A DNA stretch of 46,778 bases, from contig JAFGEC010000159.1 in NCBI GenBank assembly GCA_016931775.1, positions 1 to 46,778 on the forward strand, written 5' to 3'. The position numbers were made by a program, and so were the translations under genes. This DNA comes from Candidatus Zhuqueibacterota bacterium (GTDB lineage Bacteria > Zhuqueibacterota > Zhuqueibacteria > Residuimicrobiales > JAFGEC01). The notes under the pieces are model-generated. The model worked only from the letters and a program-made list of their open reading frames with translations. It made no database searches and was not told where the DNA came from. Below, piece after piece: positions 1,452-46,687 of this stretch (positions within the stretch are counted from its first letter, which is position 1; each line of letters opens with the position of its first letter).

Positions 1452-1506
1452 AAAAAACCTCAAATTGCATCTCATAAAGTGTATTTTCGATCAATGGAGG
1501 TTAACA

Positions 1507-4500
1507 ATGTCGATTCATTATAATAGGATTCCGGAATTAATCACCAGCAAAATTGTGGTCGGTGAAAGATTTGTTTTTTTTCTGCCCGGATTGGAAGACG
1601 GTTTTCATCGATATGTACCCAAAGTCCCTTGGATATCCGGTCTGACCGGTGGTGTCCCGGTAAAAATTTCCTCTTTTTATATTCCGCCCAAACCGGTGCA
1701 AAATATGCCTATCGGCGCTGTCTGCCCTACAAAGATGTTGTACGATACAAAAGAAACCGTACCGATATTGGTCTGCGATCCTGAAAACAAGGGCAAGAAT
1801 GTACAACTTTTAATCCAAAACAGTTCTCACACTCCGGAAACGATCAGTTTAACCTTGGATCATCATGGTTGTGCCTTATATCATTTACACCAGCCATTGG
1901 AGGGTGATTATAAGGTACGTCTGGCTAACACAACTTTTACAGCTTTTTTCAAAGTCGCACGATATCAACTTGTACCACTGCACGCCGAATATATTGAACA
2001 CCCTGTTTTAGAAAAAAATGATAAAATGAAGTGTAAGGTAAAACTGACAACGTATGAAGTGCCTTTGAACGGCAATGTCACTGTTGAACTTTTACAGGGA
2101 GAAAAACGAATTACCCGTTTTGAACTGCATGTAATAAATGGATTAACCGAACCTGTTTTTCAGTTGCCGTCTGGAGAACAAGATTTAAGTATCAACTTTC
2201 TTTTCGATGACAAAAGCGCATCTTTACCCGTACGTGGCGGCAAACAGAGTGAAAGACAGCATTTTACGGCAAATCCTCTGGGTAAAGTCGTCAGTGTCTC
2301 CACTCTACCACCGGGAGATGATGTTCGAGGTTTATATTTTGACCATCAAAAAACAAATCACGCACCTTTTGAACTGGAGAACATCAGTGCTGACAGGGGT
2401 GTTTTAAAAATCAATCATAAAAAAATGGAATTTATATGTATCGATGTTGTCGATCCGGTCCATAAAAGAAATTTTTCTTTTATTCCAGAGAATCTAACCA
2501 ATGGTTCTCGAATTATGTTTGACGTACCTGATCCTTACTGTATTGTATTTATCGGTGCGATTATCAGTGGAAAAGCATATGAAGCCTACACAACCGTTAT
2601 TCATCCGGAAAGAACACAGATCAAGATCAAAATTCCCGAAAAGATCGAACCCGGCGATGAAGGAACCATCATGCTTGAGGCATCACAAGAAACGGGCGTT
2701 CTGGTCACAATCACAGACGGCAGGGCTGTCTCCCAATCCACCCTCCGTCATTCGTTTGCGTCTGAATTAAAAAAAGGAATACAGAATACCGTTGGTTCGT
2801 TGACACCCGGTGAACCCGTAAATAATCTGTCCAAGCATTACCGCCCGTATACCGTAAGCGGAAGAGAAAGCGGGGGATTGGTTGGCGATCTATTATCTCA
2901 ATTGTCGGATTTTATGGATGATGAAAAAAGCTTCATGCGCCCCAGACTCCGGCGGAATATTAGTCCACAATTTTCCAGCCACAGCTTTATGGCTCCTCCC
3001 AGCTACGACGAGCCGTACCGCAAGCTTCACATTGGGGCTACTCGTGCGTGCAGGCTCGTGGCAGAAAAACCGGCGGTCACAAAAATACCGGAATCCCCAA
3101 AAGAAAACGATGAGGTGGTAAAGCAGGTAATTGGCATCCCACGTCGAAAAAGCCGGGAAACAGTACTGTGCCGGTATTTTTCACTCAAAGGGAAAAAAGT
3201 TATCGGTTTTCGTGCACCGGAAACAATGACGCATCTTAACGTGTCGGTGCAAACAGTTTGTGGTTATGAGCCTAAGCTGATCGAGAAAAAAATCGCCGTT
3301 ACTAAAGACCTTTTTATCGAATTTAACACACCTTCATTTGTGCATCCCAAAGACAAAGTTCAGGGCAAATTGTACGTACAGTGTCAAACCGGAGAATTTA
3401 AATTTCAACTGTTTAAAGACGGTGTAATTGTTCCTCTCACAAACAATCACAACACACTTGCAACGGATCAATGGCTAAATAAGGATGGAACATTTACTTT
3501 TCCCGCAGTACCCGGTAAATACACGGCTATTCTTGAAGACAAAGAAGGTCATACTGACTCTGTAGAGACAACAATAACTGCACCGGGACAATTTATTCAT
3601 AAAGTTAAAAGCATTAAAATGTTAAAACCCGGCGATTCCGTCTCCCTCGAAGAAAATGGATATATCGCCATTCAGTTGCTTCCTTCACTTGAAAAACCCT
3701 ATAAAAAAGCCCTCAAGGTGACCGCAGACTATCAGCATTTATGCTGCGAGCAGACAGCCGCAAAAATTGTCGCTGCATCCTTAATGTATCTTTACGGCGG
3801 CGGCGATGATAGGAGCAAAGCGGAAAGTATGATCGTAGCGGGAATTCAAAGAGAGGCAAAAATGTTCCGCAGAGGAAACGGTTTTCTCATGTATCCGGAT
3901 AGTTCCCACATGTCCGAACATTACTCAAGGCTGGCCACGGAGTATCTTTTATACGGTTTGAAATCCCTTTCCGGTGTGGCAAGCAGTCAAGCATTGCAAA
4001 ATGCTTGTTCATACGGTTTACAAATGGCGCAGAACGCTGCTCAATTTCACGGCATTCAATTTCCTCCGAAAAAAGTTTCCTCCTGCCGGGAAGCATATTA
4101 TGTTCTGCTTGAGGATCCAAACAATCTAGCAGCAGTGGAGTATGTCAATACAAAAATAAAACATGAAGGACATTATTATTGTGTTAAAAACGGAACCAGT
4201 GTATCCAGCCGTACTGAAACAGCTTTTGCAGCGGCTGCGCTTTTTTTAAGCGGGCCGGCAAATATCGACAAAGCCATCATGACTTCCAACTGGATGACTA
4301 AACAGATGAACCAGAGCGGTGCCTGGTATTCGACCATGGATTCAATCGCCGGAATTTGCATGATGAACGCAATGAACCGGCTCGATGTCTTGACCGGTAT
4401 GGAGAATGCTCCCATAGAGATAAACGGTAAGATGTCCGACCTGCGCTCAATGGAATCAAAACAAGAAATTCAGTCTGTTAAAAATCCGGGTGAAAATACG

Positions 4501-4899
4501 ATTTTTCTGCCGGTACAGGTCACCGAACTGAAAAAAGAAAACTGGAATGCGAACAGATCAAATGTGGACGTGAGTGTAAAACTGACAAATTCCGCAGGAA
4601 AATCTGTAAATAAAGCCCGGATCGGTGAAGCATTGGACCTTAAAATATTGCTTCGCAACGGCTATAACATCGGTGATCTCTGTTTTATCTGCTTACCACC
4701 GGCGCTCAGCTTTGTATATGGGGGCGGACAGATCAAAAAGATGGCGATCGATTTTGAGGGTAAAGACAACATATCTGTTCCTGTCGCTGCGTTAACAGCG
4801 ACAGATGGCGTTCAACATTACGCCGTAAGTATCAGGAATATGTACGATGAAGACAAAATCGGTAATCCGGGCTGGCAAAAAATAAAAGTCGTCGCTTAA
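1507..4899 (+). CDS. Alpha-2-macroglobulin-like protein with C-x-E-Q thioester motif; no recognisable signal peptide
   Basis: ATG at 1507 after GGAGG; A2M-domain-like ETVLCRYFSLKGKKVIGFRAPE...FNTPSFVHPKDKVQGKLYV; TADYQHLCCEQTAAK and alpha/alpha thioester-domain-like TETAFAAAALFL...GAWYSTMDSIAGI. Confidence 0.8.
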   Translation: MSIHYNRIPELITSKIVVGERFVFFLPGLEDGFHRYVPKVPWISGLTGGVPVKISSFYIPPKPVQNMPIGAVCPTKMLYDTKETVPILVCDPENKGKNVQLLIQNSSHTPETISLTLDHHGCALYHLHQPLEGDYKVRLANTTFTAFFKVARYQLVPLHAEYIEHPVLEKNDKMKCKVKLTTYEVPLNGNVTVELLQGEKRITRFELHVINGLTEPVFQLPSGEQDLSINFLFDDKSASLPVRGGKQSERQHFTANPLGKVVSVSTLPPGDDVRGLYFDHQKTNHAPFELENISADRGVLKINHKKMEFICIDVVDPVHKRNFSFIPENLTNGSRIMFDVPDPYCIVFIGAIISGKAYEAYTTVIHPERTQIKIKIPEKIEPGDEGTIMLEASQETGVLVTITDGRAVSQSTLRHSFASELKKGIQNTVGSLTPGEPVNNLSKHYRPYTVSGRESGGLVGDLLSQLSDFMDDEKSFMRPRLRRNISPQFSSHSFMAPPSYDEPYRKLHIGATRACRLVAEKPAVTKIPESPKENDEVVKQVIGIPRRKSRETVLCRYFSLKGKKVIGFRAPETMTHLNVSVQTVCGYEPKLIEKKIAVTKDLFIEFNTPSFVHPKDKVQGKLYVQCQTGEFKFQLFKDGVIVPLTNNHNTLATDQWLNKDGTFTFPAVPGKYTAILEDKEGHTDSVETTITAPGQFIHKVKSIKMLKPGDSVSLEENGYIAIQLLPSLEKPYKKALKVTADYQHLCCEQTAAKIVAASLMYLYGGGDDRSKAESMIVAGIQREAKMFRRGNGFLMYPDSSHMSEHYSRLATEYLLYGLKSLSGVASSQALQNACSYGLQMAQNAAQFHGIQFPPKKVSSCREAYYVLLEDPNNLAAVEYVNTKIKHEGHYYCVKNGTSVSSRTETAFAAAALFLSGPANIDKAIMTSNWMTKQMNQSGAWYSTMDSIAGICMMNAMNRLDVLTGMENAPIEINGKMSDLRSMESKQEIQSVKNPGENTIFLPVQVTELKKENWNANRSNVDVSVKLTNSAGKSVNKARIGEALDLKILLRNGYNIGDLCFICLPPALSFVYGGGQIKKMAIDFEGKDNISVPVAALTATDGVQHYAVSIRNMYDEDKIGNPGWQKIKVVA

Positions 4900-4907
4900 A
4901 AAAGGAA

Positions 4908-4936
4908 TTGACATATACAAAATTTACGACTATTTT
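4908..4936 (+). promoter_or_regulatory. Candidate sigma70-type promoter for the GH2 gene (TTGACA-N17-TATTTT)
   Basis: TTGACA 4908-4913, 17-nt spacer, TATTTT 4931-4936. Confidence 0.45.
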
Positions 4937-17772: not shown

Positions 17773-20439
17773 TCACTTTACGAATATCATTTTCTTCGTC
17801 GCCTGATATTTTTCTGTTAAAAGTCTACAAAAATAGACTCCGGATGCTTCGTCTTGCATACTCAAATGAACGGTGTGACGTCCGGCATTCATCTTTCTTT
17901 TCAAAAGTGATTTAATTTTTTTACCGTTCACATTATAAAGTTCCAAACGGACAAATGTGTTGCAATCAATTGAAAATTCAATTCTTGTATTCGAATTAAA
18001 CGGATTCGGAAAATTCTGCTTGAGGCAAAAATCAATCGGCACGGCCTGTGCATATGTCACAAAATCCGAATACTTGAAAGAGCCATCCCTGTCCGTCTGT
18101 TTGAGCCGATAGACCGGGGTAGTGCGGATATCCGGAACATTATAATCAATAAAATGATACTCTATAGGTTTTATCGAATATCCATATCCTTTTACGAAAC
18201 CGATTGTGGACCAAGCGGATGTGTTTATATTTTTACTACAGTTACGCTCAATATAAAAACCGTAATTATTGCTTTCATTTGCAGTCACCCAGTTCAGAAG
18301 GATATTTTTGGATATTCTGGAAGCAGTAAAAGTAACAAAATCTACGGCTAAAACCTTTTTATTCACGTTGAAAACATGTACGATATTTAATCCGTCTCGA
18401 TTATAATCAAACTCCAGGACGAACAAAAGTCTGCTTTGCGGGTCAAAAGTCATTGATCTGATTTCTATTTTTTTTCCCAAAAATATTTTTGGATCAAATC
18501 GGATTGCCGAATAAGGTTGTGGCTGAAAGGATGGTATTTCACCGCCACTTACCCTTGCCAGGTCATCGGGATCGTATAAAATCGCCATTGGAATAAAATT
18601 ATGCGCCTTCCAACCTTTACCGTCCGGATCGGTAATGTAAAATTCCGGATATGGCACATCTGCTATTATCCAATCATGGCGCATATGTTCACCAATGTAA
18701 CCATACCAATGCTGCCCCCGCGCCTTATTTCCCAAAATGACCACGGCATTCTGATTTTCAGCGGAAAGCCAGGCAGCATCCTTCCAATCATCACTTAACA
18801 GGTAGCCATCGATGGCATTGGGTAAAAAATAGCCGTCGGTACCCTCCACAGGACCGTATTTTAGCAGCGTTGTATAATTCAAGACAGAATTAGCAGTCGG
18901 GGGATTTTCACCAATGCCTGAAAACGAATATAATCCGGGTCCCAATCCCCCCAGTCCGCCGTCACGGCAGCGCCCTGTAACCAATCGCTGTCCGGCCGTA
19001 TTTTGCTTGGCCCATATTTCCGGAAGTTTGAACAGATAATCGCCCAGTGCCGCGTCCAAAGGCGGAGAACCAGGATCTCCGACATGCCATGCTCCATATT
19101 TTATGGCGATTGCCGGATTTTCAGCATCACAGCAACTGATGCATGCATGCTTTTCAGCCGTAACCGTATAATGCACGCTCCAGGAACTGTAGAGACGGTC
19201 TTCGTCGTCGAAATATTCAAGGCCGGTTCGCCATATGTCGACATAATCGCCCCAACTGTCGATATTACCGGGACGGATGTTAACAGGATTCGCTATGGTT
19301 TGTGCCTGCGGCAAGTCATCGATATTTCCGGCACTGGTAACAACAGGCTGCGGGATACTCACCTGGCCGGCAAATCCGCGCTGCGGCTGATTGAGATCGG
19401 TTACAAATAAAGATCCGCTGAATCCATCGGCAGCGCCGGAACCGTTGGGCCCTCCATCACCATTCGGGAAATAGGCCATAGATTCACCGCCCCAGGAAAA
19501 CACTTCGGGTAACCGGAATGCGCCCAAATACATAAAACTTTCCGGCGTGATCAAATCCACTCTTTGCTGGTAAGGAAGCGAATTCGCAACCACGGCTAAA
19601 GAGGGTAAACTTTCGTTCCCGCAGTGATCCAGTGCGGTTACGGTAAAAGTAAAAGTGCAATCCGGCTGCAGGTACACAGCCGTAAAATTTTCCTCCCTTG
19701 AATATCCTTCAACCTGACCATCCATGTAAATCAAGTATTCTATCACACCGGTGTCGTCATCCGGTTTCTGCCAGCTTAGGGCGATTTTTGAATCGGATAC
19801 AGGAATGGCACTCAGCGCAGACGGAGGATCGGGAGGTGTCACGTCGGCATCTGAAAAAAGTTCTATTTTATCGCAAACAATATATTGCTTAGGATACGTT
19901 TCGAACCATTCAATATGTAAGTTAATATTGATCAGATCGAAACCTGTGTTGGTCTTGTGAACTCCCCCATCCGTAATATTAAAAACCGTTCGCACCCAAG
20001 CAGCCGGTTGAACGGTGGTGTAGGTTTGCCGGTAATCGGAAAAATTTCGCATGGTATACCAATGGCCCTCACGTTCGCCGCCGTCAGGATAATCCGGATC
20101 GGTAAAACTAATGCGGGCTGCCATTGTCACCGGCTGATCGAAAGTATTAAACCAGGTTACCACAATTCTTTCCCCCGGGATAAAATTTCTTATCACGCCA
20201 CGCACACCGCGAAAATCTGTATATTCGTCAATATCCGAAACAGCAATCACACCACCGGGACCGGAAGAGGTATATCCCATGTTTGGACTCAACAACAGTT
20301 GATCCCATTCGTTAAGCGCAAAATTATTCTGAGCAGGCGTTGCTCCAAAATCTACCAGAACAACGGCTTGGACGACTGTGGCTCCTCCCAAAAACCACAT
20401 CACTGCTATTATTCTTAACCGATGCTTTAGAAATGACAT
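17773..20439 (-). CDS. Large secreted protein with FN3-like domain and C-terminal sorting-type domain
   Basis: Signal peptide; PPDPPSALSAIPVSDSKIALSWQKPDDDTGVIEYLIYMDG (FN3); C-terminal QNFPNPFNSNTRIEFSI...SGVYFCRLLTEKYQATKKMIFVK. Confidence 0.8.
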   Translation of the reverse strand: MSFLKHRLRIIAVMWFLGGATVVQAVVLVDFGATPAQNNFALNEWDQLLLSPNMGYTSSGPGGVIAVSDIDEYTDFRGVRGVIRNFIPGERIVVTWFNTFDQPVTMAARISFTDPDYPDGGEREGHWYTMRNFSDYRQTYTTVQPAAWVRTVFNITDGGVHKTNTGFDLININLHIEWFETYPKQYIVCDKIELFSDADVTPPDPPSALSAIPVSDSKIALSWQKPDDDTGVIEYLIYMDGQVEGYSREENFTAVYLQPDCTFTFTVTALDHCGNESLPSLAVVANSLPYQQRVDLITPESFMYLGAFRLPEVFSWGGESMAYFPNGDGGPNGSGAADGFSGSLFVTDLNQPQRGFAGQVSIPQPVVTSAGNIDDLPQAQTIANPVNIRPGNIDSWGDYVDIWRTGLEYFDDEDRLYSSWSVHYTVTAEKHACISCCDAENPAIAIKYGAWHVGDPGSPPLDAALGDYLFKLPEIWAKQNTAGQRLVTGRCRDGGLGGLGPGLYSFSGIGENPPTANSVLNYTTLLKYGPVEGTDGYFLPNAIDGYLLSDDWKDAAWLSAENQNAVVILGNKARGQHWYGYIGEHMRHDWIIADVPYPEFYITDPDGKGWKAHNFIPMAILYDPDDLARVSGGEIPSFQPQPYSAIRFDPKIFLGKKIEIRSMTFDPQSRLLFVLEFDYNRDGLNIVHVFNVNKKVLAVDFVTFTASRISKNILLNWVTANESNNYGFYIERNCSKNINTSAWSTIGFVKGYGYSIKPIEYHFIDYNVPDIRTTPVYRLKQTDRDGSFKYSDFVTYAQAVPIDFCLKQNFPNPFNSNTRIEFSIDCNTFVRLELYNVNGKKIKSLLKRKMNAGRHTVHLSMQDEASGVYFCRLLTEKYQATKKMIFVK

Positions 20440-31104: not shown

Positions 31105-32541
31105 CTAATCAAGCGGCTTTTCAGTTTTCCGAGCTATACAAATAATTGATTGACCCGGCCAAGGAAGAAAGCGATCAATTAGTTTAAAAAACCATACCAA
31201 GGAGTCATACACCTTGAGTTGAAGCATGGAAAAATGTCGTCGCTTAAGGATTTTTCCATTCACAATCCAACCCGGTGTGGAGACACGATTAAATTGGAAT
31301 ACATGCTCAACTTCGAATCCGGATTCAATGACAATTTTACGAACATCTTTTTCTGAGTAGCGACGCTCATGCTTGACTGTTTCATCTAGTGTGGAGAACA
31401 ATGATTGCAAATGAGGGACGAGGAGTATCAGACGGCCTTCATTAATCAGAATTTTGTAAATATTTTTCAAAGCGTGCTTGTCATTTTTAATATGTTCGAG
31501 TACATTGAGGCAAACCACGGTGTTTATCTTTTCGTCCGGAAGCGATGGATCGATTTCATCGGAAATGTCCATTTGGACAACACGTACATTGGGCCGCCCG
31601 TAGAACATATTATTCAGTGTTTGAATATGCAGCGGGTCGATATCAGTGCAAATATAACGCTCTCGTGGTAACAATGGCTGAGTAATGTTGCCAATGCCAG
31701 AGCCGATTTCCAGTACACGATCACCGACATACGGTGAGATAACATTGGCCATCCATTTATTAAGCCGATGTGTATGTGAGAAGCAAAATAATGTACTGGC
31801 GTCTTTTTCAACATACAGATCATCTACAAACCAATATTTCAATATAATAAAAAATGCCTCCACCCCATCCTTCCAATTGATCTTTTTGCCTTCCGAATAA
31901 GTCCGCCCATAATAGGAAACGGGGACTTCATATACCCTAAATCCTCTTTTTGCTACTTTTGCTGTTATTTCAGGTTCGATTCCAAACCGTTTTGCACGAA
32001 TAGGTATGCTTTTCAGTAATTGCATTTTGAATACCTTGTAACAAACCTCCATGTCGGTCAGATTAAGACCGGTGAAAAAATTCGACATAAAAGTTAACAA
32101 TTTATTTCCGATGCTATGATGAAAAAACAGAACCCGTCGCGGGCGACCGGTGGTAAAACGTGTTCCATAAACAACATCAGCAACGCCTTGTAATATAGGT
32201 GCCAATACTTCGGCATATTCGTTGGGATCGTATTCTAAATCCGCATCCTGAAAAATAGCTATATCCCCGGTCGCCTTTTGGACCGCAAATTCGATCGCTG
32301 CGCCTTTTCCTTGATTTTTTTCGTTCCGAAACAATTTTATCATAGAGTTCTTTGCTGCTATTTCGGTTAAAATTTCCCACGTACCATCGGTCGAATGGTC
32401 ATCGACAATAATAACTTCCCTTTGCAAGGAGGCCGGTAAAGGCGCAGCAAGGACTTTGTCGATCAAAGTACGGATGAGATATTTTTCATTGTAAACAGGA
32501 ATCAGTATCGAAAGCAGACGTATCCGACTTCTGTCATCCAA
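31105..32541 (-). CDS. Bifunctional GT2 glycosyltransferase / class I SAM methyltransferase
   Basis: TTG start with GGAGGT RBS; LIPVYNEKYLIRTLIDKVL...IIVDDHSTDGT (GT2); VLEIGSGIGNITQPLL...VVCLNVLEHIKNDKHALKN (methyltransferase). Confidence 0.85.
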   Translation of the reverse strand: MDDRSRIRLLSILIPVYNEKYLIRTLIDKVLAAPLPASLQREVIIVDDHSTDGTWEILTEIAAKNSMIKLFRNEKNQGKGAAIEFAVQKATGDIAIFQDADLEYDPNEYAEVLAPILQGVADVVYGTRFTTGRPRRVLFFHHSIGNKLLTFMSNFFTGLNLTDMEVCYKVFKMQLLKSIPIRAKRFGIEPEITAKVAKRGFRVYEVPVSYYGRTYSEGKKINWKDGVEAFFIILKYWFVDDLYVEKDASTLFCFSHTHRLNKWMANVISPYVGDRVLEIGSGIGNITQPLLPRERYICTDIDPLHIQTLNNMFYGRPNVRVVQMDISDEIDPSLPDEKINTVVCLNVLEHIKNDKHALKNIYKILINEGRLILLVPHLQSLFSTLDETVKHERRYSEKDVRKIVIESGFEVEHVFQFNRVSTPGWIVNGKILKRRHFSMLQLKVYDSLVWFFKLIDRFLPWPGQSIICIARKTEKPLD

Positions 32542-39240: not shown

Positions 39241-40560
39241 TTATTTCACATATACAAACCGTTTTGTTTGTTCAAATGAACCTGTTCGCATTTGATATAA
39301 ATATATCCCGGCTGACAATCCCGATCCATCCAGGGAAACCGTAAATGTTCCGGCCGGTTGGTTTTGATCCACGAGCGTTTTGACCAGCTCACCCCGTAAA
39401 TTATACAGCTTTATCGATACATGTTCTGCAAATGGGACGGTGTATTGAATAGTTGTTTGAGGATTAAACGGATTGGGATAATTTTGTCTTAATGAATGGT
39501 TGAATGGCATTGTACCTGGATTTTGAATGTAAGTGTCGTTGGTTCGCCAAATGACAACATCTCCATTATCAGGAATAGCATCAAACTGTACATATCTTAT
39601 TCCATTCTCATCGACCATTTTTGTATCGACCGGTTCGCCATCTTGTGTTACAGTACCTGCGGCCCAATTTTCCGGCATGGAACGGCGGATGGAAATGGGA
39701 TAATTGAAAATTTCGTTATCCAGAGAATCCGTCACCTGTATGATAATACTGCTATCCTGCATCGAAATCTCTGTAACGGACACGGCGTTCCGTTCCTCGA
39801 TATACCGCACAACGTTACCGAATGAATCGACCCAATAGTCATTGCGGTTTTCGTGTAAATGTTGCAATGTTTCCCGCAGCACATCCGATGTAACCGGCGA
39901 CCAGCCCCCGTCGTTATCGACACCGTGCAACAGATAAACACACCATCCTTTGGACTTTATGGCCGAACTTGCTCTGCTGATAAAATGATCTGACGTTTTT
40001 ACCGATCCCTCTGTACCACAAACGATGGAACTGATAGCCATAAAATCCCGAGGTGTGCTGGGTTCGATTTGACCGGAACAAATACGGGCGCCGATATAAT
40101 ACGACGCGCATATTGTTTTATTGCCTGTCACACAGTAAGGACAAGCCATTGTAACACATCTGTGGCCGGTTATGTGCGAATCGATATCCTGCCGACAATC
40201 ACGCAACTCGACCATCTCTAAAGAATCGCTCAAATCAGCAAAAGATGTATGGGTCAGGGTGTGTGCGCCAATTTCATGGCCGTTGTCCGCGGCCTGCTGC
40301 AACGTATTCCAATTGGGCAGTCCCATTCCGGCAGAACGGGTAACGATATAAAGTGTTAGGTTAAATCCAAACTCGTTAAATAGCGGTACCGCCGTTGTGA
40401 ACTGTTTGGGTGTACCATCGTCAAAAGTAAAACTGACCGCAGCATTGCAGAATCCATGCCAGGTGCCGATTTCATATTGAGGATCGACGGTTTGAGAATT
40501 TGCAGATTGAAAGTAGAGGAAAGAAATAATCATCAGAGAACTTTTGTAAATCTTGCGCAT
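39241..40560 (-). CDS. Secreted polysaccharide deacetylase (NodB) with C-terminal sorting-type domain
   Basis: AAVSFTFDDGTPKQF; GHEIGAHTLTHTSF; C-terminal QNYPNPFNPQTTIQYTV...LSAGIYLYQMRTGSFEQTKRFVYVK. Confidence 0.88.
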   Translation of the reverse strand: MRKIYKSSLMIISFLYFQSANSQTVDPQYEIGTWHGFCNAAVSFTFDDGTPKQFTTAVPLFNEFGFNLTLYIVTRSAGMGLPNWNTLQQAADNGHEIGAHTLTHTSFADLSDSLEMVELRDCRQDIDSHITGHRCVTMACPYCVTGNKTICASYYIGARICSGQIEPSTPRDFMAISSIVCGTEGSVKTSDHFISRASSAIKSKGWCVYLLHGVDNDGGWSPVTSDVLRETLQHLHENRNDYWVDSFGNVVRYIEERNAVSVTEISMQDSSIIIQVTDSLDNEIFNYPISIRRSMPENWAAGTVTQDGEPVDTKMVDENGIRYVQFDAIPDNGDVVIWRTNDTYIQNPGTMPFNHSLRQNYPNPFNPQTTIQYTVPFAEHVSIKLYNLRGELVKTLVDQNQPAGTFTVSLDGSGLSAGIYLYQMRTGSFEQTKRFVYVK

Positions 40561-41095: not shown

Positions 41096-42094
41096 ATGTC
41101 CGTCACCCAAAAAGATATCGCCAGAAAACTCAACGTATCCGTAATGACGGTCTCCAAGGCACTCAGAGGCCACCCGGATATCAGTGAAAAAATGCGCAAG
41201 CGCGTCGAAAAAACCGCCCGCGAAATGAATTATACCGTCAACGTTCTGGCACGTAGTCTGGTGCAAAAACGCACCAATACCATAGGTGTGGTGGTGCCGG
41301 ATATTTCCGAATCGTTTTACGCTGAAATTATTCATGGCATCGAAGCCGTCGCTCGACAAAATGATTATAACATTTTACTGGCGAACTCTGATAACAACCC
41401 GGATCTGGAACGGAAAGCCATTCAAACCCTATTGGAAAAACGGATAGACGGATTATTGTTGGCACCGACAGAGCTGGATAACAGTTATGTACAAACGCTG
41501 CAAACCATGTCCACTCCTTTTGTCCTGTTAAATAGTACACCATCACAACTGGACTGTGATTCTATCAGTGTGGATCGAGGATTTGGAGCCCGGTTATCGA
41601 TTGACCATTTAATTCAACAAGGGTACCAGGAAATTTATTATTTTTACACTTTTCAGCATATGGAGCAAACTCGGCAGAGTATTAAAGTGTGCCTGGAGAC
41701 GTTTAAAAATCATAAAATGCCCGGTTCGCAGTTGTACCTGATCCATTGCAGCCGTCATGATATGGACGAGTTTTATTCTCGTGCCAAAGAACTCATTTGT
41801 GATATTGGTAAAAGAATCGGTATTTTTGCCTGGGACGATGAAATGGCTATGGGAATATACCGGGCCGTGACCGAAAAAAATATGCAGATCCCTGAACAGA
41901 TCGGTATTATCGGCTTTGACGATATTAAAATCTCTCAATATCTGCCGCATGCTCTAACTACCGTGCACTATCCGAAATATGAAATGGGTAAAAAAGGTGC
42001 CGAAAGGTTGATCAAAAAAATAGCCGCAAAGCGAATGCCGGCTGTTAAAAAAATACAATTGAAACTCGAATTAAAAATACGTGAAACAACGTGA
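41096..42094 (+). CDS. LacI-family transcriptional regulator
   Basis: VTQKDIARKLNVSVMTVSKALRGHPDISEKMRKRVEKTAREMNY HTH; periplasmic-binding-like effector domain. Confidence 0.95.
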   Translation: MSVTQKDIARKLNVSVMTVSKALRGHPDISEKMRKRVEKTAREMNYTVNVLARSLVQKRTNTIGVVVPDISESFYAEIIHGIEAVARQNDYNILLANSDNNPDLERKAIQTLLEKRIDGLLLAPTELDNSYVQTLQTMSTPFVLLNSTPSQLDCDSISVDRGFGARLSIDHLIQQGYQEIYYFYTFQHMEQTRQSIKVCLETFKNHKMPGSQLYLIHCSRHDMDEFYSRAKELICDIGKRIGIFAWDDEMAMGIYRAVTEKNMQIPEQIGIIGFDDIKISQYLPHALTTVHYPKYEMGKKGAERLIKKIAAKRMPAVKKIQLKLELKIRETT

Positions 42095-42107
42095 AACGGA
42101 GGGCAAA

Positions 42108-43388
42108 ATGAGATATTGCACATTTATAATACTTATTAGTCTTGTTTTCTCTACCGGGATTTCTGCCGGTGACTTTTTATCGGGCGGATTTTCACGCTTC
42201 AACATTACACCGGAGAAACCCGTCACCCTAAGCGGATATGAAAGCAGAAAAGTTTTATCAACAGGCATACATGATTCATTATACGCCCGTTGCTGTGTGT
42301 TCCAATCAGGTGCGGAAAAAGTTATTTTAATCTCTACGGATGTGATTGGATTTTACGGTGAAACAGCCTCACATTTTGTAGATATATTATCGAAACAATT
42401 TAATCTGCAACCGTCACAATTACTGTTATGCGCCATTCACACACATTCTGCACCCCGCGTGACGTTGAATGAGGGAAACGGCCATCCCAACAATTTGGAA
42501 TATACGGCGAAGCTGGAAAAAAAGCTGGTCAAACTTGTGGAATCGGCAATGAGTGATATGGCGCCTGTTACACTTAAAACTGGAAACGGCTCCTCCCCTG
42601 TCGGTGTCAATCGAAGAGAAGTATATTATGACGAACTGGGAAACCCGCGTATGTGGATCGGACGTAATCCTGACGGCTCGAAAGATCGGGAGGTACAGGT
42701 TATATGTGTATCCGGCAAGGACGAAAAGCTAAAAGCTGTGATCTGGGATTATGCCGTTCACAGCACATGCCTGGGCTTTGACAATTATATCATCAGCGGC
42801 GACGTCCATGGTCTGGCGGAACAGTTTATCGAAAGATACCTCGGTCCACCTGTTTTGGCTCCCGGATTCGCCGGTGCATCGGGTGATATCGATCCGTGGT
42901 ACCGGGTATTGCCAGAAATTGAAACAAAAAACGGCTGGATACCGGAGCCGGTATTGCTGGGCACTCTGCTTGGAGAAGAGGTGGTGCATGTTATACGAAA
43001 AATGAAAAATTCAATAAATACATTGCCGCTGCTCACCCGAAAAGAAACCATAATCTGCCCCGGTAAACCACAGGGAGAACCAAAGACAACACCTGAAACA
43101 CCTGAAACATCTATAAACGTTTCTGTTGTACGGATGGGCGACATTGTACTGGTGGGATTTGGCGGTGAGCTTTTATGTGAAATCGGGATGTGGATTAAAC
43201 AGGCATCACCCTTTAAACAAACCATAATCATCACGCACTGTAATGGTTCGGTCGGCTACTTGCCTCCGCGGCATTTATACCATGAAAGCGGTTACGAAGT
43301 TCTCACATCTCCTTTTGCTTCAGGTGCTGCTGAAATCGTCATTAAACGCACCCTTGAAATTTTGAATCAACTATATATCGCGGAGTGA
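42108..43388 (+). CDS. Neutral/alkaline ceramidase N-terminal-like family protein, secreted
   Basis: ATG 42108 after GGAGGG; signal peptide; FSRFNITPEKPVTLSGYESR; CAIHTHSAPRVT; GFAGASGDIDPWYR. Confidence 0.78.
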   Translation: MRYCTFIILISLVFSTGISAGDFLSGGFSRFNITPEKPVTLSGYESRKVLSTGIHDSLYARCCVFQSGAEKVILISTDVIGFYGETASHFVDILSKQFNLQPSQLLLCAIHTHSAPRVTLNEGNGHPNNLEYTAKLEKKLVKLVESAMSDMAPVTLKTGNGSSPVGVNRREVYYDELGNPRMWIGRNPDGSKDREVQVICVSGKDEKLKAVIWDYAVHSTCLGFDNYIISGDVHGLAEQFIERYLGPPVLAPGFAGASGDIDPWYRVLPEIETKNGWIPEPVLLGTLLGEEVVHVIRKMKNSINTLPLLTRKETIICPGKPQGEPKTTPETPETSINVSVVRMGDIVLVGFGGELLCEIGMWIKQASPFKQTIIITHCNGSVGYLPPRHLYHESGYEVLTSPFASGAAEIVIKRTLEILNQLYIAE

Positions 43389-45748
43389 AAATTATGTCAT
43401 CACATCTCAAAGCAAATTTTTATCTTTTTTTAGCCCTTGTAATAACGGGTACTGCAGCGCCGGCAACAAAAGGCACTCCCCTTCCATACAGGGACTCTTC
43501 TCTGCCCTTAAAAATCCGGATTGATGATCTCATCGGCCGGATGACGCTTGAAGAAAAGGTCGGACAGTTAAATATGCCTTGCGTGTATGAAGGCGGTTTG
43601 GGAAGGGGTATAGAGGAGAAAATGTCCAATGTTAAAAAATTTGCCATGGGTACCCTTGTCGACGGCTTGGGCCCGGGTGGCGGCTTTTTCACATTGCCCA
43701 ACACAATCCTGCACAACGGCACAAGCCAGCAGGTTGAGTTTATCAATGAACTTCAAAAAATTGCTTTGGAAAAAACACGACTGGGAATCCCCCTGCTTTT
43801 AACCGAGGAGGGCACTCACGGCCTCATGTGTTCGGGCGGTACGATTTTTCCTGAAGGTCCCGCATTGGGCAGCACCTGGAACCTTGACCTGATCTCCCGC
43901 ATATATTCCGCGACGGCCAAGGAAGCCCGCTCCATCGGTATACATCAGATATTTACCCTTGTAATCGAGCCCATTCGGGATCCCCGGCTTGGCCGGAACG
44001 AGGAAGCCTACAGCGAAGATTCGTATCTTTGTTCCCGTTATGCGGAAACCATTGTCCGTTCGGTACAGGGCGACGATGTGTCGCAGCCGGATAAATGTGT
44101 CGCCGGTTTGTGCCATTATCCCGGTCAAAGTGAACCGGTCAGTGGACTGGAACGGGGCGCCATGGAAATTTCCGAACGGAAATTGCGAGAGGTCTTTTTG
44201 CCGTCCTGGGAAGCCGGGATCAAGTACGCCGGGGCGTTGGGTGTCATGGCGACCTATCCGACAATCGATGGTATACCGGCCCACGCTTCGGAATGGATTT
44301 TGACGGATATTTTACGCGGTGAATTCGGCTTTGAGGGCCTTGTCCTTTGTGAAGGCGGCGGTATCGAAACGGTCATATACCAGGGTCTGGCTCCGGATAT
44401 GAAATGTGCAGGACAAATCGCAATCAAGGCCGGTGTGGATGTGGGTATTTCGTACGAGTCGGGGTATATGCTGGACCTTATCCAATCGGTTAAAGACGGT
44501 GCCATACCGGAGTCGCTGGTAGACCGTGCATTACGCCGTGTGTTGTTGCAAAAGTTCAAGCTGGGATTATTTGAAAATCCGTATGTAGAACTGGAAAATG
44601 CGGAAAAAACCGTGCACAATCCGGAGCATCAGGATATTGCGTTGGAAGCTGCGCGGCAAAGCATTGTGCTGCTCAAGAATGAGGGGAATCTGCTTCCTCT
44701 GGATAGAACAAAAATCAAAAATATCGCCGTGATCGGTCCCAATGCGGACGACGAAAAAAACCAGCTCGGTGATTATGTTGCCATTAACGTGCTGCAGGAT
44801 ATCGTTACTGTTCTGGATGGCGTAAAAACTTTGGCGCAGAACAGCGAGGTCACTTATGTCAAGGGATGTAATGTGACCGGAACTAAATTGATTGAAATTG
44901 ATGAAGCCCGGGACGCCGCGCAAAAAGCCGATGTAGCGATCGTTGTACTGGGTGAAAACGAATGGCGCAAGCACGATCAAGACGGAGAACATGTGGGTAC
45001 CAGCGGCGAAGGATTTGACGCGGCGACCCTGGAATTGACCGGTCTTCAGCAACGACTTGTTGAAACGGTTTATCAAACCGGTACACCGACCGTTGTGGTT
45101 CTCATCAATGGCCGGCCTCTTGCGATCCGCTGGATTGCGGAAAACATACCCGCCGTGATTGAAGCATGGATTCCCGGTGAAAAAGGCGGCCAGGCTGTTG
45201 CGGAGATTCTTTTTGGGGATATTTATCCCTCCGGCAAGCTGCCGGTGACTATTCCGCGGCATGCCGGGCAGTTACCGGTTTACTATAATTACCAAAAGCC
45301 GAAGCGCCACTGGCTGCAACATGCATGGGGCAAACCCTATGTGGATATGGATCCGTCGCCGTTGTTTGTGTTTGGTCACGGATTAAGCTATACATCCTTT
45401 AAATACAGCAATCTGGTGCTGGATAAAAAAGAAATCCTCAAAGGCGGCACGGTAAAACTGAATGTGGATATTCTCAATGACGGCCTCATGGCCGGCACGG
45501 AAACCATCCAGTTGTACATCGAGGACATTATCGCCACGGTCAGCACACCGGTTCTGGAACTGAGGGGATTTCAACGGGTGGAATTAAAACCCGGCGAAAC
45601 AAAAACAATCTTTTTTGAACTGGGTCCCCGGCACCTGGAGCTGTACGACCGGCATCTGGATCGTGTGGTGGAACCGGGTGAATTTTCAGTCAAAGTCGGT
45701 GCGTCGAGTGCAGATATCCGGCTGGAGGGCCGGTTTGTTGTGAAATAG
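43385..45748 (+). CDS. Glycoside hydrolase family 3 (beta-glucosidase-like), secreted
   Basis: GTG 43385 overlapping the upstream stop (alternative ATG 43394); YRDSSLPLKIRIDDLIGRMTLEEKVGQL; EISERKLREVFLPSWEAGIK; C-terminal GH3 and FN3-like domains. Confidence 0.92.
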   Translation: MKIMSSHLKANFYLFLALVITGTAAPATKGTPLPYRDSSLPLKIRIDDLIGRMTLEEKVGQLNMPCVYEGGLGRGIEEKMSNVKKFAMGTLVDGLGPGGGFFTLPNTILHNGTSQQVEFINELQKIALEKTRLGIPLLLTEEGTHGLMCSGGTIFPEGPALGSTWNLDLISRIYSATAKEARSIGIHQIFTLVIEPIRDPRLGRNEEAYSEDSYLCSRYAETIVRSVQGDDVSQPDKCVAGLCHYPGQSEPVSGLERGAMEISERKLREVFLPSWEAGIKYAGALGVMATYPTIDGIPAHASEWILTDILRGEFGFEGLVLCEGGGIETVIYQGLAPDMKCAGQIAIKAGVDVGISYESGYMLDLIQSVKDGAIPESLVDRALRRVLLQKFKLGLFENPYVELENAEKTVHNPEHQDIALEAARQSIVLLKNEGNLLPLDRTKIKNIAVIGPNADDEKNQLGDYVAINVLQDIVTVLDGVKTLAQNSEVTYVKGCNVTGTKLIEIDEARDAAQKADVAIVVLGENEWRKHDQDGEHVGTSGEGFDAATLELTGLQQRLVETVYQTGTPTVVVLINGRPLAIRWIAENIPAVIEAWIPGEKGGQAVAEILFGDIYPSGKLPVTIPRHAGQLPVYYNYQKPKRHWLQHAWGKPYVDMDPSPLFVFGHGLSYTSFKYSNLVLDKKEILKGGTVKLNVDILNDGLMAGTETIQLYIEDIIATVSTPVLELRGFQRVELKPGETKTIFFELGPRHLELYDRHLDRVVEPGEFSVKVGASSADIRLEGRFVVK

Positions 45749-45858
45749 GTTTATAACAAGCTGTTGACAATATCAGTGTAATTATCAAAAAAAATACAAC
45801 TCGTATGTTGAATGAAAATATAAATCCCCTAAAATTCCTGTGAATTTGGAGAAATAAT

Positions 45859-45960
45859 ATGATGTATTTATTATATCCGATGATTGCGCACATGAAAAAC
45901 ACGTTGCCGGATATTACGATAGCTTTTATACGATCGTTGAAAACTGAATTAAAACGCTAA
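45859..45960 (+). CDS. Possible small ORF (33 aa)
   Basis: MMYLLYPMIAHMKNTLPDITIAFIRSLKTELKR* with GGAG upstream; no recognised family. Confidence 0.2.
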   Translation: MMYLLYPMIAHMKNTLPDITIAFIRSLKTELKR

Positions 45961-46090
45961 GCATGGCAAAGCCTTGAACGGAATAATTTCCTAAAAACAT
46001 GCTATTGCTCAGCAACCTGCTGCAAAGAGAGAATGTGATATTAATTTAAAAATATGTGCAGATTTGCTCAAATAAAAAAAAAGGTAATTG

Positions 46091-46132
46091 TTCATTGATC
46101 ATTGTTCACTGTTCATTGATCACTGTTTACCG
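46091..46132. repeat. Six degenerate tandem heptamers (consensus WTCAYTG)
   Basis: TTCATTG ATCATTG TTCACTG TTCATTG ATCACTG TTTACCG; same unit as at 37851-37871. Confidence 0.85.
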
Positions 46133-46141
46133 GGAAAATTT

Positions 46142-46687
46142 ATGAAACTCAACAGTTTTGAAACCGGCATTTTTATTTTATACCTTTTCATTGTCATCGC
46201 CATCGGATTTATTTCCGGCCGCAAGGGCAAAAACAGCACCACCCATTTTTTTCTTGCCGGCCGTGGCCTGCCGTGGTTTGTGATCGGTTTTTCATTGATT
46301 GCCTCCAGCATCAGCTCGGAGCAGTTTATCGGTGAGGTGGGCTGGGGTTACAAATACGGTATGGCGGTCTGCAATTGGGAATGGCTGGTGTGGCTTGCCC
46401 AGGGTTTGCTGTTGTTTTTCTTTCTGCCGGTTTACCTGAAAAACAGAATATTCACTATCCCCGAATACCTGACGCGCCGTTTCGGAAGATTTGCCGGCTC
46501 CACTTTTGCGCTGGTGTGCATGATCCAGTATCTGGTCATTAACCTGCCGATGGTTCTGTATTCCGGCGGATTCATGATCAAAAAGATGTTCGGATTAAAT
46601 CTGCACCTGGCCATCTGGATTCTTGTTTTTGCCGCCGGAGATCGATGGTCATCCGGAATGGAATTCCGTATATACGCTGCTATATAA
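46142..46687 (+). pseudogene. Sodium:solute symporter (SSS) family transporter, truncated
   Basis: MKLNSFETGIFILYLFIVIAIGFISGRKGKNSTTHFFLAGRGLPWFVIGFSLIASSISSEQFIGEVGWGYKYG...; resemblance is lost after AIWILVFAAG (about 46640), stop 46687. Confidence 0.75.

Follow-up and report, generated by a model that had tools for sequence, protein, structure and literature searches.

Thioester macroglobulins of bacteria and animals have, as far as we checked, been described as extracytoplasmic proteins (periplasmic, secreted, or surface-located), which raises the question of what a protein of this kind would do in a cell that gives it no export signal. Such a protein is encoded at positions 1507–4899 (stop codon included) on the forward strand of contig JAFGEC010000159.1 from a Candidatus Zhuqueibacterota bacterium (GCA_016931775.1), the whole 46,778-nucleotide stretch of which is referred to here as the window. 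A first-pass annotation of the window had read the gene as coding for an alpha-2-macroglobulin (A2M)-like thioester protein of about 1130 residues without a signal peptide, and had tied it to glycan breakdown. The open reading frame (ORF) indeed encodes 1130 amino acids, and the A2M-type protein without an export signal not only stood but extended to an entire clade, whereas the tie to glycan breakdown found no support. Based on the ORF, Pfam A2M matches, family alignments (A1 and A2), and an AlphaFold2 model, we consider the window protein to be a cytosolic thioester macroglobulin that probably serves as a protease trap.

The assignment to the A2M family rested on profiles and predicted structure. 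The window protein alone gave marginal Pfam matches, with 21.3 bits for PF00207 (cut-off 21) and 16.6 bits for the thioester domain (TED) model PF07678 (cut-off 22), and it matched no NCBIfam family. When 20 exported A2Ms of related genomes were combined into a profile, its alignment with the window protein ran from the A2M domain into the TED, and PF00207 was matched by 19 of 25 members of the family described below. An AlphaFold2 model computed from a 41-row family alignment (pLDDT 85, pTM 0.76) resembled A2M-type proteins across its length, and a Foldseek search against the PDB placed full-length matches to ECAM (4rtd and 5a42), CD109, TEP1, and C5 on top with E-values of 8e-33 to 5e-32. 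Whole-chain TM-scores of the PDB matches were 0.3–0.43, values in keeping with a chain that is flexible, multidomain, and different in length. The exported-A2M profile, the Pfam matches of the family, and the structural match made the A2M assignment firm, and the A2M/thioester-type fold of the window protein is well supported. A search for viral folds returned mostly Ig-like phage proteins and one Megaviridae protein annotated as macroglobulin, the latter with a low TM-score.

Macroglobulin (MG) beta modules and an alpha-helical TED were both present in the model, with all features lying on the forward strand. The N-terminal MG-like beta modules (residues 16–404, positions 1552–2718) were delineated from predicted secondary structure and confidence and from Foldseek matches to A2M, TEP1, and CD109. 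At the position of the A2M bait region lay a bait-like segment of 93 residues (residues 449–541, positions 2851–3129) that was predicted to be disordered (pLDDT below 50) and was the least conserved region, with a conservation of 0.21 compared with 0.40–0.53 elsewhere; its length ranged from 58 to 261 residues across family members. Further A2M/MG beta modules 5′ of the TED (residues 552–713, positions 3160–3645) were located by Pfam and AlphaFold2 and included PF00207 at residues 561–625. The TED itself (residues 729–958, positions 3691–4380) was defined by the model and by alignment with exported A2Ms, and a C-terminal beta module with an RNMY motif (residues 1001–1129, positions 4507–4893) by the family alignment and the model. 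Direct translation located the thioester motif C746–C747–E748–Q749 exactly where the first pass had seen CCEQ (positions 3742–3753). This C-x-E-Q motif aligned with YPYGCxEQ of exported A2Ms, and profile, family, and structure agreed in placing it within a genuine A2M thioester domain.

With the window protein as the sole query, no homologue was found in its phylum, GTDB contigs, viral contigs, plasmids, or PDB sequences. The family came to light only with a DNA pattern for the thioester motif (Y-x3-C-C-E-Q-T-[ASTP]2) over the GTDB contigs of 84,980 species genomes. The pattern matched 63 stretches, 42 of which were, after translation, short A2M loci of one type, some of them cut by contig or locus ends; chance matches and four exported A2Ms with YPYGCCEQT (L059, L078, L086, and L104) were set aside. 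The complete short A2Ms comprised ~1100–1470 amino acids, none with a signal peptide. Full-length members aligned end to end (alignment A1), were 21–30% identical to the window protein, and had in common GxxFxF at the N-terminus, ATADYxHxCCEQTAAK at the thioester, and GFxMYP, YSTxDS, and RNMF near the C-terminus.

By record title, the 42 loci belonged to Thiotrichaceae (Thiomargarita, Parabeggiatoa, and Achromatium), Myxococcota, Acidobacteriota, Obscuribacterales, Chloroflexota, Cyanobacteria (Oscillatoria), Planctomycetota (including Uabimicrobium), Desulfobacteraceae, Riflebacteria, and a few further lineages. The family is thus scattered over ~10 bacterial phyla in which giant, filamentous, and social species abound; most of the genomes are metagenome-assembled, so that individual taxon labels (Kazan, for one) may be incorrect. 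Their median size was 7.7 Mb (31 genomes with 32 of the 42 loci). The family was also patchy within lineages: in the order to which one Thiotrichaceae member belongs, 9 of 43 genomes carried it, and in one myxobacterial class 2 of 116 did (already-known carriers counted in both). Among the 82 genomes of its phylum, the window protein was the sole member: the other 81 yielded no relative by protein search or by profile, with which the window protein itself scored 1123 bits and all others 33 or fewer, and the long proteins among these weak matches were ordinary A2Ms. Six Polyangia matches (L155–L160) were rejected as members, as they had no C-x-E-Q and, where visible, signal-peptide-like N-termini; the clade boundary was thus clean where tested. 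These Polyangia proteins are short macroglobulins of ~1200–1250 amino acids with weaker profile matches (122–138 bits as whole proteins).

The absence of an export signal was examined from both possible starts of the window protein. Neither ATG 1507 nor the upstream in-frame TTG 1465, which would add 14 residues (MHLIKCIFDQWRLT) without signal-peptide character, gave a hydrophobic N-terminal stretch, and no signal peptide or lipobox of the kind found in bacterial type I A2Ms was present. ATG 1507 is the likely start because direct reading showed a Shine-Dalgarno sequence, GGAGG, 6 nt 5′ of it (positions 1496–1500, forward strand). A signal-peptide-like N-terminal core was found in 0 of 25 members examined (window protein included). 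The best 12-residue mean hydropathy at the N-terminus averaged 1.16 in the family versus 2.66 in exported A2Ms. Start codons were consistent across the family, usually with a ribosome-site-like sequence 5′ of them. Family members were about three times as cysteine-rich as exported A2Ms (1.20% versus 0.37%; Mann-Whitney p = 1e-8, for sequences that are related and not independent).

Inserted domains were of a cytosolic type as well. Seven family members matched a TPR-type NCBIfam model, and MshEN occupied the bait position of two distant members (L072:612–5021, E 6e-13; L102:2983–6894, E 2e-14). MshEN domains bind cyclic di-GMP (c-di-GMP) in cytosolic ATPases, and their position in these two proteins suggests a second-messenger-gated macroglobulin. 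Because the missing signal peptide, the cysteine content, the consistent starts, and the TPR and MshEN domains all agreed, the window protein and its clade are very likely cytosolic, as judged from these sequence features, and the absence of an export signal from both is well supported. Other N-terminal variations included a putative zinc ribbon at residues 1–35 of L109 (a weak match) and an unassigned extension at residues 1–80 of the Uabimicrobium protein L055, which looked ubiquitin-like by eye, although its model was of too low quality to assess this (pLDDT 50).

Phylogenetic analysis of 63 sequences over the A2M-TED region (41 of the cytosolic type, window protein included, and 22 exported) separated the two types completely, by a 100/100 branch present in every bootstrap tree. 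The window protein did not group with the exported A2Ms; it grouped weakly with L098 (80/57), to which it was 40% identical. The genome of the host also encodes an exported A2M of 1841 amino acids (L050). The distinctness of the cytosolic-type clade from exported A2Ms is well supported, and since the missing export signal is common to this whole separate clade, it is not an annotation slip. That CCEQT is invariant among the collected sequences was built in partly by the search pattern; four members found without the pattern read CCEQT, CCEQI, CCEQI, and CCVQT, which suggests that the two adjacent cysteines are a genuine feature. C-x-E-Q was retained in nearly all TED-bearing members, pattern-independent ones included, and the motif and the surrounding TED ranked with the most strongly conserved parts of nearly every full-length member.

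The fold, the bait-like stretch, and the thioester motif support a mechanism of the A2M/complement type in the cytosol. We therefore propose, with a probability of roughly 0.55, that the gene product is a minimal cytoplasmic alpha-macroglobulin that covalently captures attackers, the equivalent, inside the cell, of A2M and complement C3/TEP. Cys746 and Gln749 would form a buried internal thioester. A damaging cytosolic protease (from a phage, from a rival as a delivered effector, or from the cell's own death machinery) would cut the bait, or an inserted sensor domain would bind its signal; the molecule would then change shape, the thioester would be exposed, and the attacker would be covalently captured. 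Reactivity, trigger, target, and trapping are thus what we infer for the window protein.

Several points weigh against this proposal. The formation of the thioester, the cutting of the bait, and the capture step are putative, and the cytosolic location is deduced from sequence. One paralogue (L149) has CCVQT in place of C-x-E-Q, and two related Thiotrichaceae genomes carry a TED-less second paralogue of 821–837 residues (L186:4467–6929 and L187:4988–7498), downstream of which no TED sequence follows; the thioester therefore appears dispensable in some copies. Moreover, no conserved partner gene at ~30 homologue loci pointed to a target protease. Caspase-like proteases, common among the family genomes (as many as 45), were rejected as an obligate partner and could be no more than one candidate target, because they were absent from 4 of 31 family genomes and present in relatives of the host without the family.

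Intracellular tagging, in which the activated thioester would put a covalent label on intruder components (phage or damaged proteins), to be read by other factors as in complement C3 or TEP1, is an unlikely alternative that nevertheless fits the small size of the protein, which is near that of TEP1 and CD109 chains (~1170–1280 amino acids), the ranking of these proteins beside A2M in the fold search, and the wealth of social and giant bacteria in the phyla that carry the family. It is countered by the bait-like segment and by the lack of a conserved neighbour fit as convertase or reader; in addition, the window protein matched no known defence family in PADLOC, where the 25 members gave one marginal match, to BrxA (E 0.0024). 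Quite improbable, in our estimate, is a scaffold or sensor that retained the macroglobulin fold, whose shape would be shifted by c-di-GMP (through MshEN) or TPR partners while the thioester is a relic or of minor importance. The MshEN and TPR insertions, the adjoining MerR regulators and Ser/Thr kinases, and the retention of TED-less paralogues together with the CCVQT copy would suit such a role, which leaves unexplained the high conservation of the thioester motif and TED, although the identity of the motif derives partly from the search pattern. Export by a non-classical pathway, or from a start that was missed, would have the protein act like an ordinary A2M in the periplasm, where all experimentally known bacterial A2Ms act (e.g. 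PMC5764988). We regard this as highly improbable given the good Shine-Dalgarno sequence at 1507, the lack of a hydrophobic N-terminus in all 25 members, the cysteine-rich family, the cytosolic-type inserted domains, and the separate exported A2M of the host.

The gene neighbourhood bears on the proposed link to glycan breakdown. A URO-D-like gene and a GH2 gene lie on the same strand as the A2M gene, at gaps of 55 nt and 104 nt, respectively. The URO-D-like gene (positions 234–1451) scored best against MtaA/CmuA methyltransferase models and not HemE, all far below cut-off. A promoter-like TTGACA-17-TATTTT (a consensus match only) was located at positions 4908–4936, between the A2M and GH2 genes, and no penicillin-binding protein, the pbpC-type neighbour, was encoded among the annotated window genes. 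A conserved operon was rejected, as neighbour genes called by a simple longest-ORF rule revealed no shared operon around ~30 homologues. Protein kinases (8) and MerR regulators (6) were the commonest families among 96 sampled homologue neighbours, whose 25 commonest Pfam families included no glycosidase family; apart from these Ser/Thr kinases and MerR regulators no neighbour recurred, and such large genomes are probably rich in kinases. A MerR regulator adjoined the gene upstream in 6 of the ~30 compared loci (L122, L127, L133, L134, L140, and L141); these MerR genes, from Acidobacteriota and Chloroflexota, share a C-terminal motif, and in L140 and L141 they overlap the A2M start by 4 nt. Seven relatives in the class of the host keep GH2 (44–55% identity by tblastn) without such an A2M, and no GH29 was seen around it in the available sequence, in which several contigs were short. 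Since relatives keep GH2 without the A2M and homologues in ~30 other genomes have unrelated neighbours, the glycan setting is local, and a functional tie of the A2M to the adjacent URO-D, GH2, GH29, and PhoD glycan-degradation genes is scarcely credible despite the shared strand and short gaps, the promoter-like sequence also speaking against it.

Elsewhere in the window, a single ORF (31105–32541) encodes a fusion of a family 2 glycosyltransferase with a methyltransferase domain, and two Por_Secre_tail proteins (17773–20439 and 39241–40560) suggest that the host has a type IX secretion system. A LacI regulator, a ceramidase-like protein, GH3, and a sodium-solute symporter in a row (41096–46687) likely form a glycan-uptake cluster.

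Compared with known systems, bacterial type I A2Ms (E. coli ECAM/YfhM and Salmonella A2M) have in common with this clade the MG modules, a bait-like region, and a C-x-E-Q TED. However, they are periplasmic, low-cysteine proteins of ~1500–1900 amino acids with a signal peptide or lipobox, often encoded beside pbpC, whereas the clade members are shorter (~1100–1470 amino acids), cysteine-rich, without export signals, and separate in the tree. The type II A2Ms (P. aeruginosa MagD and E. coli YfaS) are likewise bacterial proteins with an MG-type fold, but MagD has no thioester and is itself a periplasmic/inner-membrane protein, encoded in a six-gene operon (PMC5764988). Animal thioester proteins (TEP1, CD109, complement C3/C5, and A2M) show the same overall fold and module order, and TEP1 and CD109 a similar chain length, but they are extracellular and only ~11–12% identical in sequence to the window protein, which has no signal peptide. 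The nearest idea in the open-access literature is the CAGE complex of Tetrahymena and Dictyostelium, which has bacterial homologues, is intracellular in eukaryotes, includes some A2M-like beta domains, and has a protease trap among its proposed roles (PMC12485934). It is nevertheless a different family: CAGE proteins comprise ~2000–2200 amino acids with no Pfam domain and no reported thioester domain, and the bacterial ones mostly have signal peptides (PMC12485934), in contrast to the 1130-residue window protein with C-x-E-Q in a TED.

The open-access literature that was searched yielded no account of a bacterial thioester A2M residing in the cytosol; as far as that literature goes, this distinct family is apparently undescribed. 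Members occur in isolated named strains, Minicystis rosea DSM 24000 and Archangium lansinium, so that a knock-out is at least conceivable. Tentatively, giant, filamentous, and social bacteria with large genomes may keep an intracellular, complement-like covalent trap or tag for proteases or phage components, gated in some lineages by a c-di-GMP-type sensor (MshEN) in the bait segment. The retention of thioester machinery without an export signal in ~10 phyla raises the questions of whether an internal thioester can survive the reducing cytosol and of what a cytosolic thioester would catch there.
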